This document shows positions 16,540-47,255 of a DNA stretch of 52,382 nucleotides, in pieces. The stretch lies in NCBI GenBank assembly GCA_007695365.1, contig REDV01000084.1:1-52382 (forward strand). Direction: 5' to 3'. The position numbers were made by a program, and so were the translations under genes. The notes under the pieces were generated by a model. It was not told where the DNA came from. It was given only the letters and a program-made list of their open reading frames with translations, and did not search any database. Position 1 is the stretch's first letter. Each line of letters begins with the position of its first letter. Source of the stretch: Cryomorphaceae bacterium (GTDB lineage: Bacteria; Bacteroidota; Bacteroidia; Flavobacteriales_D; SKUL01).

Positions 16540-18915
16540 TTAATCGCGTTTTTGCTCGGAGTCACTCCCGTAGCCATAGCCGTAGCCGTAGCCGTAGCCG
16601 TAGCCGTAGCCATAACCGTAGCCGTATTTACTGTAGTAATATTTCCAGCGTTTTTGTTTGATTCCATTGAGCAGCAATGCCACATGGCTCAGTTTATTGG
16701 CCTCAACAATTTCTTCCAGGTAGCGAACACCTTGCTTGGTGGCTCTTGCTGTATTCATTACGAACAAAGCATTATTGGTATGCTTCATCAGGACCAGTGC
16801 ATCACTGATAAGCATCAATGGCGGAGTATCGAAAATGATGTAATGATACCTTTCTTTGAGTTTTTCAACCAATTCGGTTACCCGATCATGCAACACCAAT
16901 TCGGATGCATTTGGTGGGATAGGGCCTGCAGTCATGATATGAAGATTCTCCACAGAGCTGTTTTGTATTGACTCTTCAAGGCTGGTTTTACCAACGATAT
17001 AGGTTGACAGTCCAATTTGATTCGGCAGTCCTATGGAGGAATGCACCTTGGGCTTGTGAAGGTCAAAATCAAGCAAAATGGTTTTTTTGCCTGCTTTGGC
17101 AATCATCGCCGCCAAATTGATATTTACAAAGGTCTTTCCCTCACCCGGGTGCAAAGAAGTGCTGAGCATAACATGTGAACCTCCGGATCCGCTCAGAAAC
17201 TGCAGGTTGGTTCTGATTGCACGAAAAGATTCAGCAATGTTAGACTTGGGGTTATCAACAACCACCAATCTCGACTCGCCTGTGTCCCGGTAAAGGGGCA
17301 GTCCACCGAGTACTGGTAAATTCGAAATATGCTTTAATTCCCTTGTGTTCTCAATTCGTTCAAAAAGCATCAATCTGACGAACCCAATTAACACAGCAAG
17401 AGCAAAGCCCGCACCTACAAAAATATACCAGATTCGCTGCTTATTCGGCCCTACTACGCCCAATGATCTGGAACGCTCAATGATACTGGTTTGAGGAATA
17501 ATACCTGCCCTAGCGATTACGGTATTGGCCCGTTTCTCAAGCAAGAATATGTACATGTCCTCGTTCACCTTTCTCTTGCGTTCGATGTTGAGTATTTCTC
17601 TCTGAGACCTGGGTATTTCCCGGATTAAACGTTCAATTTGTGCTATTTGAGAGATTAACCCAGCTTTCTTCTGCATCATGGCTTCGCGGGTATTACCAAG
17701 ATAAATCAGGATATCCTTTCGCAAAGCTTGCATGGCCTCATCCGACTCGCGGATACGTGGATTTTCGCCGGTAACATTAAACAGACTGAGATTTCTTTGA
17801 ATTTGACGCTCATACAGCTCGTTCAAAGACCGTCTTAAAAACGCGTCATCGTCAAGTACATAAAATGAGGGTGGCAGGATCCGCTCTTCATCGCTTTTAA
17901 AAACATACTCTTCCAGAGCATCAATCGATTGCAGCCCTAACTCCAACCTCCTCACGTCCGAGTCAAAACTGCTAATGGTTTCAAAGTGCTTGCGCTCTTC
18001 TCGCGATAAATCGAGGATGGCTTGCCCTTCTTTGTATTGCTCCAAATCTGATTCGAGGCTATCGAGAATAGAAGCAACCCGACCTAACTGACGATCGATA
18101 TAATCAAGCGTATTATCATTCAATTCCTTCTGATTATCCAGCGTACTCTGAATGTACGTAACAGAGAGACTGTCCAGAAAAAGCCTGGCCCGCTGCTCAA
18201 CCGCATCCTCAATCGAAAGCTCGAGTATGCTCGTAAAGTCAACATTCTGAATATTCAACCCCCTTTTGTAACGATTTACGAGGTATGTTAAACTGTTCAC
18301 CTGAAACTGATAGTTGTTCACAGCCAATCGCATGAAAACCTGGTCACTTAGATGTGGTGTTTTGCTCACTTTGATCACAAAATCGTCGGAAATCACCTGC
18401 TCATTGAATGGGAAAAGCTTTTCTGTATCAACGCCATCTTTCTGGTACCTGAGCATGTACTCAGAAGGTGAAACAACAAGCAAATCGATTTTTTGCTGAT
18501 AAAGCTTGGCATTCAATAATTTTACCTCAATGTCAAGACCGTCAAAATGTGTTACCTCTGTGGTTTTAACCTTACCTTTGATGAAGTAGGATAATTCAAA
18601 GTTGAGCTTTTTAATGGTCTTTTCAATCAAATCATGCGATTTCAGCACGCGTTTTTGATTGGTGATGTCCGCATAGTTTTGATAAAAGCCGGACAGCCCC
18701 CTGTAAACCTGAGATTGCAATTCATACCCAGATTCAGGCTTTAACAGGATTTCCACCTTTGCGGCGTAGATATCTGCCATCCTGTGCGTGTACAAGTATG
18801 CAGCAACGCCGAATATGGCGGTAAATAATACCACCAGGTACCAGTTCTTGCCGACAAATTTACCGACTACCCTGAGGTCGTCAGCTTCAATCACTCCCCC
18901 CTTTTTTTCGGCCAT
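16540..18915 (-). CDS. polysaccharide co-polymerase / tyrosine autokinase (Wzc-like) with Tyr-Gly tail
   Basis: The 791-aa inner-membrane protein controls chain length and export of an EPS or capsule. A Wzz-type domain with a first membrane helix (WYLVVLFTAIFGVAAYLY, about residues 28-46) is followed by a long periplasmic coiled-coil region and a second helix near residue 490 (IWYIFVGAGFALAVLIGFV). The BY-kinase domain has Walker A PGEGKT near residue 588, Walker A' LLDFDLHKPK and Walker B YIIFDTPPLML. The C-terminus is a run of about nine Tyr-Gly pairs (residues about 765-783), which would serve as the autophosphorylated tyrosine cluster. A TATATTTG promoter element lies 23 bp upstream. It is the first gene of the unit reading into the ABC exporter and wecB and is divergent from the exosortase module. 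Confidence 0.94.
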   Translation of the reverse strand: MAEKKGGVIEADDLRVVGKFVGKNWYLVVLFTAIFGVAAYLYTHRMADIYAAKVEILLKPESGYELQSQVYRGLSGFYQNYADITNQKRVLKSHDLIEKTIKKLNFELSYFIKGKVKTTEVTHFDGLDIEVKLLNAKLYQQKIDLLVVSPSEYMLRYQKDGVDTEKLFPFNEQVISDDFVIKVSKTPHLSDQVFMRLAVNNYQFQVNSLTYLVNRYKRGLNIQNVDFTSILELSIEDAVEQRARLFLDSLSVTYIQSTLDNQKELNDNTLDYIDRQLGRVASILDSLESDLEQYKEGQAILDLSREERKHFETISSFDSDVRRLELGLQSIDALEEYVFKSDEERILPPSFYVLDDDAFLRRSLNELYERQIQRNLSLFNVTGENPRIRESDEAMQALRKDILIYLGNTREAMMQKKAGLISQIAQIERLIREIPRSQREILNIERKRKVNEDMYIFLLEKRANTVIARAGIIPQTSIIERSRSLGVVGPNKQRIWYIFVGAGFALAVLIGFVRLMLFERIENTRELKHISNLPVLGGLPLYRDTGESRLVVVDNPKSNIAESFRAIRTNLQFLSGSGGSHVMLSTSLHPGEGKTFVNINLAAMIAKAGKKTILLDFDLHKPKVHSSIGLPNQIGLSTYIVGKTSLEESIQNSSVENLHIMTAGPIPPNASELVLHDRVTELVEKLKERYHYIIFDTPPLMLISDALVLMKHTNNALFVMNTARATKQGVRYLEEIVEANKLSHVALLLNGIKQKRWKYYYSKYGYGYGYGYGYGYGYGYGYGSDSEQKRD
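16564..16630 (-). repeat. hexanucleotide repeat encoding (Tyr-Gly)n in the Wzc-like kinase
   Basis: The plus strand reads as near-perfect tandem CCGTAG/CCATAG hexamers over about 60 bp. On the coding strand this is TAYGGN repeated, giving alternating Tyr and Gly. In-frame slippage would change the number of phosphorylatable tyrosines without breaking the frame. Confidence 0.85.
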
Positions 18916-44638: not shown

Positions 44639-44745
44639 CAAAAGCAAGACGGGAAGCTTCTTTCCGATTTGCCCAACAAAATCTAAACCCAACCGAAAGG
44701 CCCAACGGCAATACTTTTTCTTTTTCCCCAAAGGTGATTTTAAGC

Positions 44746-45300
44746 TATGATAAGCAGGATTACCTGCGGTGATCCTAAAAGGGGGGACAGACAAGAAAAC
44801 AAGGCCATTGCTTGACGCAATGGCTTTTATTTTCCTGCACAGCCCGGTTGAAAGATATGATAAGCAGGATTACCTGCGGTGATCCTAAAGTGGGGATAGA
44901 CAACAAAACAAGGCCATTGCTTGATGCAATGGCTTTTATTTTCCCGCACAGCCCGGTTGAAAGATATGATAAGCAGGATTACCTGCGGTGATCCTAAAGT
45001 GGGGATAGACAACAAAACAAGGCCATTGCTTGATGCAATGGCTTTTATTTTCCCGCACAGCCCGGTTGAAAGATATGATAAGCAGGATTACCTGCGGTGA
45101 TCCTAAAGTGGGGATAGACAACAAAACAAGGCCATTGCTTGATGCAATGGCTTTTATTTTCCCGCACAGCCCGGTTGAAAGATATGATAAGCAGGATTAC
45201 CTGCGGTGATCCTAAAGTGGGGATAGACAACAAAACAAGGCCATTGCTTGATGCAATGGCTTTTATTTTCCCGCACAGCCCGGTTGAAAGCATAGCTTTC
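44746..45300 (+). repeat. tandem array of five 109-bp terminator-like units next to tRNA-Pro
   Basis: Units begin at 44746, 44856, 44965, 45074 and 45183. The last four are identical by eye; the first is 110 bp and carries a handful of substitutions. Read on the plus strand, each unit has hairpin 1 (AGGATTACC TGC GGTGATCCT) and hairpin 2 (GCCATTG, 7-base loop, CAATGGC) followed by TTTTATTTT, then a tail CCCGCACAGCCCGG. The second hairpin with its T-run has the form of an intrinsic terminator. There are no unique spacers, so this is not a CRISPR array. Apart from the small-protein promoter and this array, 44608-45357 holds no gene. Confidence 0.92.
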
Positions 45301-45323
45301 CCGGGCTGTGCGGGAAAATAAAA
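45261..45323. repeat. 23-bp perfect inverted repeat joining array 1 to the tRNA-Pro terminator
   Basis: The arms at 45261-45283 and 45301-45323 are exact reverse complements. An inner stem GAAAGC/GCTTTC (45286-45291 and 45295-45300) with an ATA loop extends the cruciform. The left arm is the tail of the last array unit; the right arm is the tail of the tRNA terminator on the other strand. Confidence 0.93.
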
Positions 45324-45347
45324 AAGACCAGCGTTTCCGCTGGTCTT
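45315..45347 (-). terminator. intrinsic terminator of tRNA-Pro
   Basis: On the minus strand a 10-bp stem (AAGACCAGCG/CGCTGGTCTT, arms 45338-45347 and 45324-45333, 4-base loop) is followed by TTTTATTTT. It starts 11 bp after the tRNA 3' end. Confidence 0.85.
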
Positions 45348-45357
45348 GTGTTTCTTG

Positions 45358-45432
45358 TCGGGGTGGCAGGATTCGAACCTGCGACCTCCTGCTCCCAAAG
45401 CAGGCGCGATAACCGGGCTACGCTACACCCCG
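45358..45432 (-). tRNA. tRNA-Pro (anticodon TGG)
   Basis: The 75-nt gene folds as a standard cloverleaf: acceptor CGGGGTG/CACCCCG with discriminator A, anticodon arm CCTGC TTTGGGA GCAGG with anticodon TGG, and T-arm GCAGG TTCGAAT CCTGC. The 3' CCA is not encoded. A promoter element lies upstream at 45485-45492 and an intrinsic terminator downstream. Confidence 0.96.
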
Positions 45433-45484
45433 AACTCCTTTTCCGTAATCAACTTCACTTCACAAACTCTCCGGAAAGGAGGCG

Positions 45485-45492
45485 CAAAGGTA
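45485..45492 (-). promoter_or_regulatory. TAnnTTTG -7 promoter element for tRNA-Pro
   Basis: TACCTTTG on the minus strand lies 52 bp before the tRNA 5' end. Confidence 0.6.
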
Positions 45493-45544
45493 AGCTTTTT
45501 GACATAAGATTACAGCTGCGTGAAAAACTTTGTGGTGCGATTCC

Positions 45545-46381
45545 TTAAAACCACTTTGAACGAACATTTCCCGTTGCTGCCGCGAGCGCCGCGAAATGCT
45601 GGTGTACGTTTTGAATACGTTCCTGTGACAACTTGGTAAGGATGGGATCAAGCGAACGAATATCTTCAGCAACTGCCTTGCAATCCGGATCATTCTCAAA
45701 CACATCAAGCATCTTTAACACCTTTTCAGCACCAAAAATCATGTTCCATACTTCAGTATCCACCTCACGCTGAGATTCGATATTGGCTCCAATATTGGCA
45801 GCGATGTGCATACTCTGCAACCATCCACCGGCCACAATCTGACAGGTAATTTGCGCCCTCTCTTCCGAATAGAGATTATCTTCAGCCTGACGATAGGCAT
45901 CATTGAGTAAGCTACTTTTCTTTCTGAAAGTTAAGGTCGTGTCTCCTACCTCCGTTATTTTCGCCATCAGCCCCTCATCAAAAGCGCTGGAAATACCCAA
46001 CTGATCAGCAAGACTGAGGATTGCCTTTACATAGGAAGGAGTTTGATCAGCTTGCTCAAACATAGTTAGATAGTTCAAATCAGCTCCGGCCGCACCCAAA
46101 GAAAGTGCTTGCTTTTTACGACCTGTTGCTCCTTGGTACTTTGATGCAGCCCCCACAAGATCTGATTGAAACGGAACACCAATCTCACGCATCACAAGAT
46201 AGAGGTTCCCCGCATCCTTGATGTCTTTGCGGATGGTACGTAGCTCACGCTCATAATCCACAGCAAGGCTGTCAGCTTTTTCGTAATCGTAGGTTTTGGC
46301 CTGTGGTTCAGACTCGCAAGAGCTGAGAGCAATTCCAAGTGCTAAGAATCCTGCGGGAATTAATTGGCAAACTGTCTTCAT
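45545..46381 (-). CDS. hypothetical lipoprotein
   Basis: This 278-aa protein has a lipoprotein signal (LIPAGFLALGIALSSC, Cys near residue 22) and a mostly helical body with a conserved-looking core (VMREIGVPFQSDLVGAASKY, LSLGAAGADLNYLTMFEQ and GGWLQSMHIAANIGANI). I do not recognise a family name. It should be anchored to the outer or inner membrane facing the periplasm. The start ATG 46381 is chosen over the upstream 46414 because it gives the signal a proper n-region. Downstream on the same strand lies the tRNA-Pro gene. Confidence 0.78.
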   Translation of the reverse strand: MKTVCQLIPAGFLALGIALSSCESEPQAKTYDYEKADSLAVDYERELRTIRKDIKDAGNLYLVMREIGVPFQSDLVGAASKYQGATGRKKQALSLGAAGADLNYLTMFEQADQTPSYVKAILSLADQLGISSAFDEGLMAKITEVGDTTLTFRKKSSLLNDAYRQAEDNLYSEERAQITCQIVAGGWLQSMHIAANIGANIESQREVDTEVWNMIFGAEKVLKMLDVFENDPDCKAVAEDIRSLDPILTKLSQERIQNVHQHFAALAAATGNVRSKWF

Positions 46382-46490
46382 GTTGAATGGCTTTTTTGGT
46401 TCATAGTGTGGCAAAAATGGAGAATAACTGCAACGTACAGACTTAAGTTCTCATTATTTATCCACTATCAAACCTGAATTCGTTTTGGGT

Positions 46491-46630
46491 TTATTGTTCT
46501 GGCTGTGGATTACGCAACCTGCAGGTCAAGGTTTCAATAACAGCATAATAAATGGTATAGTGCTGTATATCAACCACCTTTACCCGACACAACCAGCGAC
46601 TAGAATCTCGCACAGGACTGACTTTAATTC
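46491..46630 (-). pseudogene. possible truncated RelE/ParE-type toxin remnant
   Basis: On the minus strand the frame ending at the TAA 46491-46493 reads CRVKVVDIQHYTIYYAVIE and then ends in RNPQPEQ. The stretch with V-D-I-x-x-Y-x-I-x-Y resembles the C-terminal strands of RelE/ParE-family toxins. No start codon, antitoxin or N-terminal half is present, and array 2 begins just upstream on this strand. The resemblance is from memory and is short, so this may be a chance frame. The rest of 46382-46654 shows no gene. Confidence 0.33.
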
Positions 46631-46654
46631 TCTTTCTTCGACTTACTCGGGTTG

Positions 46655-47117
46655 AGCCACCTAAGTGTTGGAGATTTTTTGTTTCACCACAGGCTCAAAC
46701 TGCCTTGGGGATTGCCTAAAGGCGATCCCGAAAGGGGGAAACAACAGCCAAATCCAGCCACAAAAGTGGCCGGGATTTTTTGTTTCACCACAGGCTCAAA
46801 CTGCCTTGGGGATTGCCTAAAGGCGATCCCGAAAGGGGGAAACAACAGCCAAATCCAGCCACAAAAGTGGCCGGGATTTTTTGTTTCACCACAGGCTCAA
46901 ACTGCCTTGGGGATTGCCTAAAGGCGATCCCGAAAGGGGGAAACAACAGCCAAATCCAGCCACAAAAGTGGCCGGGATTTTTTGTTTCACCACAGGCTCA
47001 AACTGCCTTGGGGATTGCCTAAAGGCGATCCCGAAAGGGGGAAACAACAGCCAAATCCAGCCACAAAAGTGGCCGGGATTTTTTGTTTCACCACAGGCTC
47101 AAACTGCGTTTGGCCTT
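46655..47117 (+). repeat. tandem array of four full plus two partial 101-bp terminator-like units next to tRNA-Ser
   Basis: The phrase GTTTCACCACAGGCTCAAAC recurs at 46681, 46782, 46883, 46984 and 47085, exactly every 101 bp. Full units are identical by eye. Each contains, on the plus strand, hairpin 1 (GGGATTGCC TAAA GGCGATCCC) and hairpin 2 (AAATCC, GCCAC AAAA GTGGC, GGATTT) ending in six T residues. A degraded copy of hairpin 2 (GCCACCTAAGTG, then GAGATTTTTT) at 46655-46680 marks the left edge; the right copy is cut short by the palindrome at 47077-47134. The unit length is not a multiple of three and there are no unique spacers. Confidence 0.92.
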
Positions 47118-47134
47118 TGGTGAAACAAAAAATC
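47077..47134. repeat. 17-bp perfect inverted repeat joining array 2 to the tRNA-Ser terminator
   Basis: The arms at 47077-47093 and 47118-47134 are exact reverse complements (GATTTTTTGTTTCACCA). The 24-bp spacer continues the pairing with AGGC/GCCT and AAAC/GTTT. The left arm belongs to the array, the right arm to the minus-strand tRNA terminator tail. Confidence 0.93.
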
Positions 47135-47160
47135 CTGCACCCTATTCAGGGTGCAGGATT
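47127..47160 (-). terminator. intrinsic terminator of tRNA-Ser
   Basis: On the minus strand a 13-bp stem (arms 47148-47160 and 47131-47143, 4-base loop) is followed by a run of six T residues and GTTTCACC. It starts 6 bp after the tRNA 3' end. Confidence 0.87.
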
Positions 47161-47166
47161 TGGCTG

Positions 47167-47255
47167 CGGAGAGAGGGGGATTCGAACCCCCGATACCCGT
47201 TTCCGAGTATGCATGTTTAGCAAACATGTGGTTTCAGCCACTCACCCACCTCTCC
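47167..47255 (-). tRNA. tRNA-Ser (anticodon GCT)
   Basis: The 89-nt gene has a class II cloverleaf with a long variable arm. The acceptor is GGAGAGG/TCTCTCC with discriminator G, the anticodon arm CATGT TTGCTAA ACATG with anticodon GCT, the variable arm CATACTCGGAAACGGGTATC, and the T-arm GGGGG TTCGAAT CCCCC. The 3' CCA is not encoded. It reads AGC/AGT codons. Confidence 0.96.

Follow-up and report, generated by a model that had tools for sequence, protein, structure and literature searches.

Behind two tRNA genes of a Cryomorphaceae bacterium lie tandem arrays of short repeats, raising the question of what the repeated units are, whether both arrays belong to one family and how such units came to lie at the 3' ends of tRNA genes. 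The window, meaning the whole stretch of DNA that was analysed, is 52,382 nucleotides long and spans the whole of contig C84, one of the 154 contigs that make up a genome of 3.52 Mb. The earlier note, made from the letters of this stretch, had assigned both arrays to one family on the basis of a shared hairpin and had regarded each unit as that hairpin joined to a terminator copied from the adjacent tRNA trailer. The shared hairpin is real and its family larger than claimed, with 51 distinct tRNA-linked loci, nearly all from Bacteroidia, now compiled; the description of the remainder of the unit has to be revised.

Tandem Arrays and Their Core Hairpins

ARAGORN places tRNA-Pro(TGG) at 45357-45432 and tRNA-Ser(GCT) at 47166-47255, both also recognized by Rfam and both on the minus strand, on which all array features given below are read and which is referred to as the tRNA strand. 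According to TRF, array 1 extends over 44742-45290 (period 109, 5.0 copies, 98% matches) and array 2 over 46673-47107 (period 101, 4.3 copies, 100% matches), and these positions put each array directly 3' of its tRNA gene. Array 1 consists of five partial 109-bp units, running from the apex of a palindrome termed P2 to the core hairpin, and array 2 of 4.3 identical partial 101-bp units; these window units carry only the AATCC part of the tRNA 3' end instead of the full end. We take both arrays to be decayed derivatives, with local multiplication of a partial unit that spans P2 apex to core. A CRISPR array was rejected, as the 101- and 109-bp units repeat head to tail with 98-100% matches and are not separated by unlike spacers. 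Elsewhere in the window, TRF reports a 6-bp tandem repeat, CCGTAG, in 9.8 copies at 16568-16626.

The core hairpin common to the family reads GGATCRC-loop-GYAATCC on the tRNA strand and is present in both arrays, where it was originally read as GGATTACC-TGC-GGTGATCC (array 1) and GGATTGCC-TAAA-GGCGATCC (array 2). Pattern searches locate the cores of array 1 at 44757-44775, 44867-44885, 44976-44994, 45085-45103 and 45194-45212, and those of array 2 at 46709-46728, 46810-46829, 46911-46930 and 47012-47031. Pattern and alignment together show that the core nearest tRNA-Pro (45194-45212), GGATCACCGCAGGTAATCC on the tRNA strand, runs into TGC, matching the T-arm of this tRNA (AATCCTGC), and that the core nearest tRNA-Ser (47012-47031), GGATCGCCTTTAGGCAATCC, runs into CC as in the T-arm of that tRNA.

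Distribution of the Family

Of 10 exact copies of the motif in the genome, nine lie in the window and one behind tRNA-Arg(TCT) on contig C97; the reversed control gave 0 matches across the whole genome. The looser pattern GGATYRC-N2-16-GYRATCC finds 21 sites (control 0), among which 15 lie on the tRNA strand behind tRNA-Pro, Ser(GCT), Arg, Val, Gly and Ser(TGA), four lie in an array at the start of contig C38, where the congener G001 has tRNA-Glu, and one, nearly identical to the Val copy, lies at the start of contig C147; the last is a different, perfectly paired sequence, apparently within a coding region. The tRNA association assumed in the earlier note is thereby borne out, with 20 of the 21 sites either linked to a tRNA (15) or situated in arrays cut by contig ends (5) and no wide occurrence of the hairpin away from tRNA genes. 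At least seven tRNA loci of this genome belong to the family, including the contig-end array at the tRNA-Glu place.

Contigs C38 (1-606), C47 and C147 (loci L049, L051 and L050, respectively) start inside arrays of core units. These contig ends may hide longer arrays, which may also account for the absence of tRNA-Glu from the assembly.

Among 60 relatives, 23 contain the core pattern; copies tied to a tRNA lie behind it on the same strand, and matches lacking such a tie, mostly with mixed R/Y, are taken as chance. Extended by the tRNA T-loop and the spacing, the pattern matches 31 of 395 genomes of the class, from 28 genera (reversed control 0), a few of the matches being chance (L135, L152 and L154, none of which has a tRNA); in the phylum sample, one convincing match falls outside the class (G556, tRNA-Ser). 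The patterns detect only strict-form cores and tRNAs with AATCC, so these counts are lower bounds. Carriers include Cryomorpha ignava, Leptobacterium flavescens and metagenome assemblies of Flavobacteriales, and on the strength of these names the class is taken to be Bacteroidia. A chance origin of the tRNA-linked matches was rejected on the reversed-pattern controls, which gave 0 in nearly all genomes, and an assembly artefact on the presence of the same unit design both in isolate genomes (Cryomorpha ignava, Leptobacterium flavescens) and inside megabase contigs.

The hosts of the 51 loci, which are not independent in that several come from one genome in some cases, are tRNA-Ser (21), Arg (14), Val (6), Pro (5), Cys (3), Gly (1) and Leu (1), and the distance from the tRNA to the start of the core is 127-170 nt in all of them. 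Also observed, at L177 (G102, contig C15), was a complete unit whose core is followed by a Ser 3' end and which has no recognizable tRNA in front, perhaps a case of a decayed tRNA or of rearrangement.

Other repeats were observed behind tRNA genes of the same genome. A second, different family lies behind tRNA-Lys (L018), Leu-CAG (L041), Asn (L026), Met (L014) and Arg-CCT (L027), whose T-arms mostly read GAGYCC; its direct repeats measure about 150 bp (151 at Lys, 152 at Leu) and take in both the 3' end and the terminator of the tRNA, and most members contain a conserved GGGCGAGAAGTYTATGCCGG-hairpin-CCGGTAAG. At tRNA-Lys, two 151-bp units and a 55-nt duplication face an empty site in the congener G001, and no Rfam ribozyme matches this family. 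A scattered intergenic repeat, GTCATTTCGACCGGAGTGCTGAGG, occurs behind tRNA-His (L030) and tRNA-Asp (L022). In G001, a reading frame resembling a Y1 (REP-associated) transposase starts approximately 100 nt behind tRNA-Gln (L113) and is absent at tRNA-Gln in the present genome.

Selection on the Core Structure

The variable R:Y pair of the core is A-T in 40 of 51 loci and G-C in 11, and never mixed (0/51), though the search pattern permitted mixtures. The earlier note had read a T-A or T-G pair in array 1 where array 2 has G-C; a varying pair does exist, but array 1 has A-T there and array 2 G-C, with an adjacent T.G wobble in both. That neighbouring position is C.A on the tRNA strand and T.G on the other, and it is invariant in 49 aligned cores, an invariance that the search pattern itself demanded. 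When the search was relaxed to any Y/R at the C.A position in the 60 relatives, no extra locus reading as a tRNA plus unit appeared; the matches were mostly known loci, and the remainder were judged by eye to be chance or opposite-strand.

In the 49-core alignment, 97.2% of cells are paired and two-sided changes occupy 26 cells, compared with 6.5 in shuffles. The covariation for which the earlier note had proposed a test was found, with a score of 0.176 against 0.067 in shuffles, a value reached by 0 of 500 shuffles; kinship can inflate this score, and both pair types are nonetheless found within this one genome. The bases just outside the core also pair, G.T counted, in 46 of 51 loci. The suggestion that the hairpin is under selection on structure is thus supported by both the never-mixed pair and the covariation.

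Architecture of the Unit

From the tRNA toward the core, a unit consists of the trailer (P1), a terminator hairpin (HP1), a T-tract leading into the long palindrome P2, an A-tract, a third hairpin (HP3), an inverted copy of the trailer (P1'), a linker and the core. As judged by sequence and fold, these elements at tRNA-Pro are the trailer forming the 5' arm of P1 (45345-45356, for which own-versus-other pairing was also used), HP1 followed by a minus-strand T-tract (45325-45346), P2 with arms at 45261-45283 and 45301-45323 and a T-tract inside (45261-45323), HP3 of the adjoining unit, after which a T-rich tract follows on the plus strand (45240-45260), and P1' (45227-45239). At tRNA-Ser, the corresponding elements are the trailer (47156-47165), HP1 (47132-47159), P2 with arms at 47077-47098 and 47113-47134 (47077-47134), HP3 of the adjoining unit (47060-47073) and P1' (47049-47058); pairing contributed to the assignment of both P1' copies. 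The apex of P2 frequently resembles CAAGCTYGCTTG. Units are non-coding and approximately 80-180 bp long, with a short form of about 80 bp at L181, and those at unrelated tRNAs have little sequence in common outside the core.

P1' closes a frequent four-way junction between the tRNA and the core, which appears as the outermost multiloop of the minimum-free-energy fold in 29 of 51 loci; the folding z averages -7.2 for the tRNA strand and -6.6 for its complement. P1' pairs with its own trailer at a mean of -12.3 kcal/mol, as against -6.1 kcal/mol with the trailers of other loci. The modular unit of the earlier note therefore stands insofar as its locus-specific part matches the adjacent trailer, but this part is not simply a copied terminator: the trailer copy is inverted with respect to the tRNA, and the stem of its hairpin differs from that of the tRNA's own terminator. 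The locus-specific part consists of inverted trailer arms closing the junction, and an insertion cassette is a better reading of the unit than a terminator repeat. The G-rich spacer that had been named as a shared feature is weakly specific to the tRNA type and is not conserved across the family.

Single mismatches in P2, read on the tRNA strand, comprise 20 G.T and 1 A.C, which suggests that this strand folds, either as RNA or as single-stranded DNA, the alternative being biased mutation. The idea that the linker holds the acceptor strand in inverted copy was dropped (alignment score 3.49 with the own tRNA, 3.57 with others), and the similarity between HP1 and inverted HP3 (9.3 against 6.6) was not used, as the compared stretches overlap P1.

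Copied tRNA 3' Ends and Mixed Arrays

The AATCC of the core 3' arm runs on as the 3' end of the host tRNA itself, so that an origin from the tRNA 3' part, which the resemblance to a T-arm had hinted at only weakly in the earlier note, now has strong support in the continuation of this arm into a copy of the acceptor strand. A copied host 3' end of at least 17 bases follows the core in 7 of 50 loci, with several partial cases besides; at least eight copied bases are present in 32% of loci, compared with 4.7% for other tRNAs, and the bases flanking the core mostly match the local T-stem. At L060, L132, L149 and L151, identity stops 0-4 bases from the tRNA end, after which a different trailer and a terminator-like hairpin follow. 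Since plain duplication would have copied the trailer as well, this arrangement points to an inserted unit that arrived with a tRNA end and a trailer of its own.

Full tRNA 3' ends are contained in the units of L078, L087 and L133. The last, at a tRNA-Ser of G191, is a mixed array of the form A-A'-B-A'', in which every unit begins with the Ser 3' end. Units are also shared between tRNA-Ser loci, with 81% identity over 149 nt between Ser(TGA) and Ser(GGA) in G191 and 78% over 161 nt between Ser(GGA) and Ser(GCT) in G264, and the displaced trailer at Ser(GCT) of G204 matches the current Ser(TGA) trailer (90% over 40 nt).

Presence and absence differ between congeners. The tRNA-Glu of G001 has no unit, and the orthologous place in the present genome (G000) is the array at a contig start; the two sequences become homologous again near base 950, within the T-tract of the old terminator, with approximately 340 nt of extra sequence and a junction that is not clean. 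tRNA-Arg(ACG) has a unit in G001, and its counterpart in G000 looks collapsed on reading. A search for empty sites of L151 and L060 found no usable relative.

Origin of the Units

The reading that we prefer, at a probability of roughly 0.55, is that the units are small non-coding insertion cassettes for tRNA 3' ends, which insert at the T-arm, restore the 3' end and the terminator, and stack. They would target the 3' ends of those tRNA genes that have GAATCC in the T-arm, and a complete cassette on the tRNA strand would comprise the tRNA 3' end (AATCC plus the acceptor strand), trailer, HP1, P2, HP3, inverted trailer, linker and core (GGATCRC-loop-GY). AATCC in the T-arm would be the point at which an incoming cassette joins the tRNA body; the tRNA would be rebuilt with the 3' end of the cassette and acquire its terminator, and the old 3' end with the old terminator would be displaced downstream, behind the core. 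Repeated insertion would yield stacked cassettes, and local duplication would then multiply partial units, as in the window. The structure and its covariation, the tRNA link, copied 3' ends, second terminators, mixed arrays and sharing between loci are observed features; the core hairpin is probably the recombination site, it may work in folded, single-stranded form, and the insertion would be carried out by a recombinase, perhaps one of the tyrosine type. Neither a recombinase nor a gene-bearing relative was found in the searches, and the ORF lists of four flanking loci contain no integrase. The scarcity of sequence shared outside the core at unrelated tRNAs implies that long-range movement is rare or old.

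Counting against cassettes, the arrays of the window are tandem partial units that could arise by slippage, and a wholly local origin deserves consideration. Here no mobile element would be involved: the units would be made in place by template switching during replication together with slippage, the core being the switch point, as the nascent strand folds back past the terminator, copies the trailer in reverse and returns to the T-arm, with unequal exchange producing arrays. An inverted trailer specific to each tRNA, the perfect palindromes of P2 and the identical tandem partial units of the window all agree with this account, yet unrelated trailers after copied tRNA 3' ends require more than errors in place, and neither the mixed arrays (A-A-B-A), the whole units common to different tRNA-Ser genes nor the conserved, covarying core across many families are readily accommodated, so that we consider it rather unlikely. 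Less likely still is a structured RNA, in which read-through of the terminator would give a 3' trailer with the four-way junction and the core, serving tRNA processing, termination or a small RNA, and arrays would raise the dose. The strong conserved fold and the core covariation are what such an RNA would predict, as is the excess of G.T over A.C on the tRNA strand (20 to 1), a bias equally expected of folded single-stranded DNA; against it, the junction lacks conserved bases, the invariant mismatch of the core is C.A on the tRNA strand, units are gained and lost between sister species, and a unit lies beyond a terminator.

It is very improbable that the units are remnants of larger tRNA-integrated islands or prophages, whose genes were deleted to leave the two ends, with the core in the right attachment site. 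Insertion into the 3' end of a tRNA gene, with a copy made of that end, is generally known as a hallmark of such elements, whereas remnants would be expected to vary in size, and the units keep a tRNA-core spacing of 127-170 nt in 51 of 51 loci together with a conserved fold; no full-length parent was found.

In its widest form, the insertion-cassette reading would describe mobile non-coding tRNA-end cassettes throughout the class, moved in the manner of integrons by a recombinase acting on the folded hairpin, by which bacteria swap tRNA 3' ends and terminators and keep the old stacks; we put this forward tentatively, with somewhat less than even confidence. A search limited to open-licence papers found no description of such tRNA-end repeats or of their stacking. 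If true, the proposal would add a mobile element lacking a known recombinase and explain sudden changes of tRNA trailers. Tiny gene-free units in many families of one class seem to share the landing trick of islands and, in addition, to stack, and their arrays at contig ends may explain some assembly breaks.

Comparison with Known Systems

No Rfam family fits the units. The rtT repeats of the E. coli tyrT operon are tandem repeats directly behind a tRNA gene with the tRNA 3' end in each unit, and the present units are likewise tandem and carry a tRNA 3' end (full in L078, L087 and L133). With the Rfam RtT model, however, eleven loci yielded no match up to E = 5 and the window none at the gathering score, and the covarying core hairpin, the inverted trailer, the many tRNA types and the occurrence across a whole bacterial class set the units apart from rtT.

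Short hairpins with a conserved mismatch in many copies per genome are also typical of REP/RAYT systems; unlike REP, core copies lie behind tRNAs only, and an origin of this kind was rejected, as the three PF01797 (Y1 transposase) matches in the genome are not near any of the 21 core sites.

Bacterial mobile DNA shows a preference for landing at the 3' ends of tRNA genes, and the known elements that do so bring an integrase. With islands and integrative elements that attach at this position, the units share the 3'-end copy on the far side and, in the proposed reading, the insertion site and the restoration of the tRNA by the incomer; they differ in being about 150 bp long and gene-free, with no integrase found and with spacing and fold conserved. 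Integron cassettes, which serve as the working analogy, are similar in the stacking of heterogeneous cassettes and in a hairpin site with a conserved mismatch. In contrast to attC, the core is GGATCRC/GYAATCC without GTTRRRY/RYYYAAC, the target is the tRNA T-arm and the units have no genes; no IntI was found among the ORFs of four loci with short flanks. Lacking the features that define either class (an attC core, an encoded integrase), the units resemble integron cassettes in their stacking and tRNA islands in their landing site.
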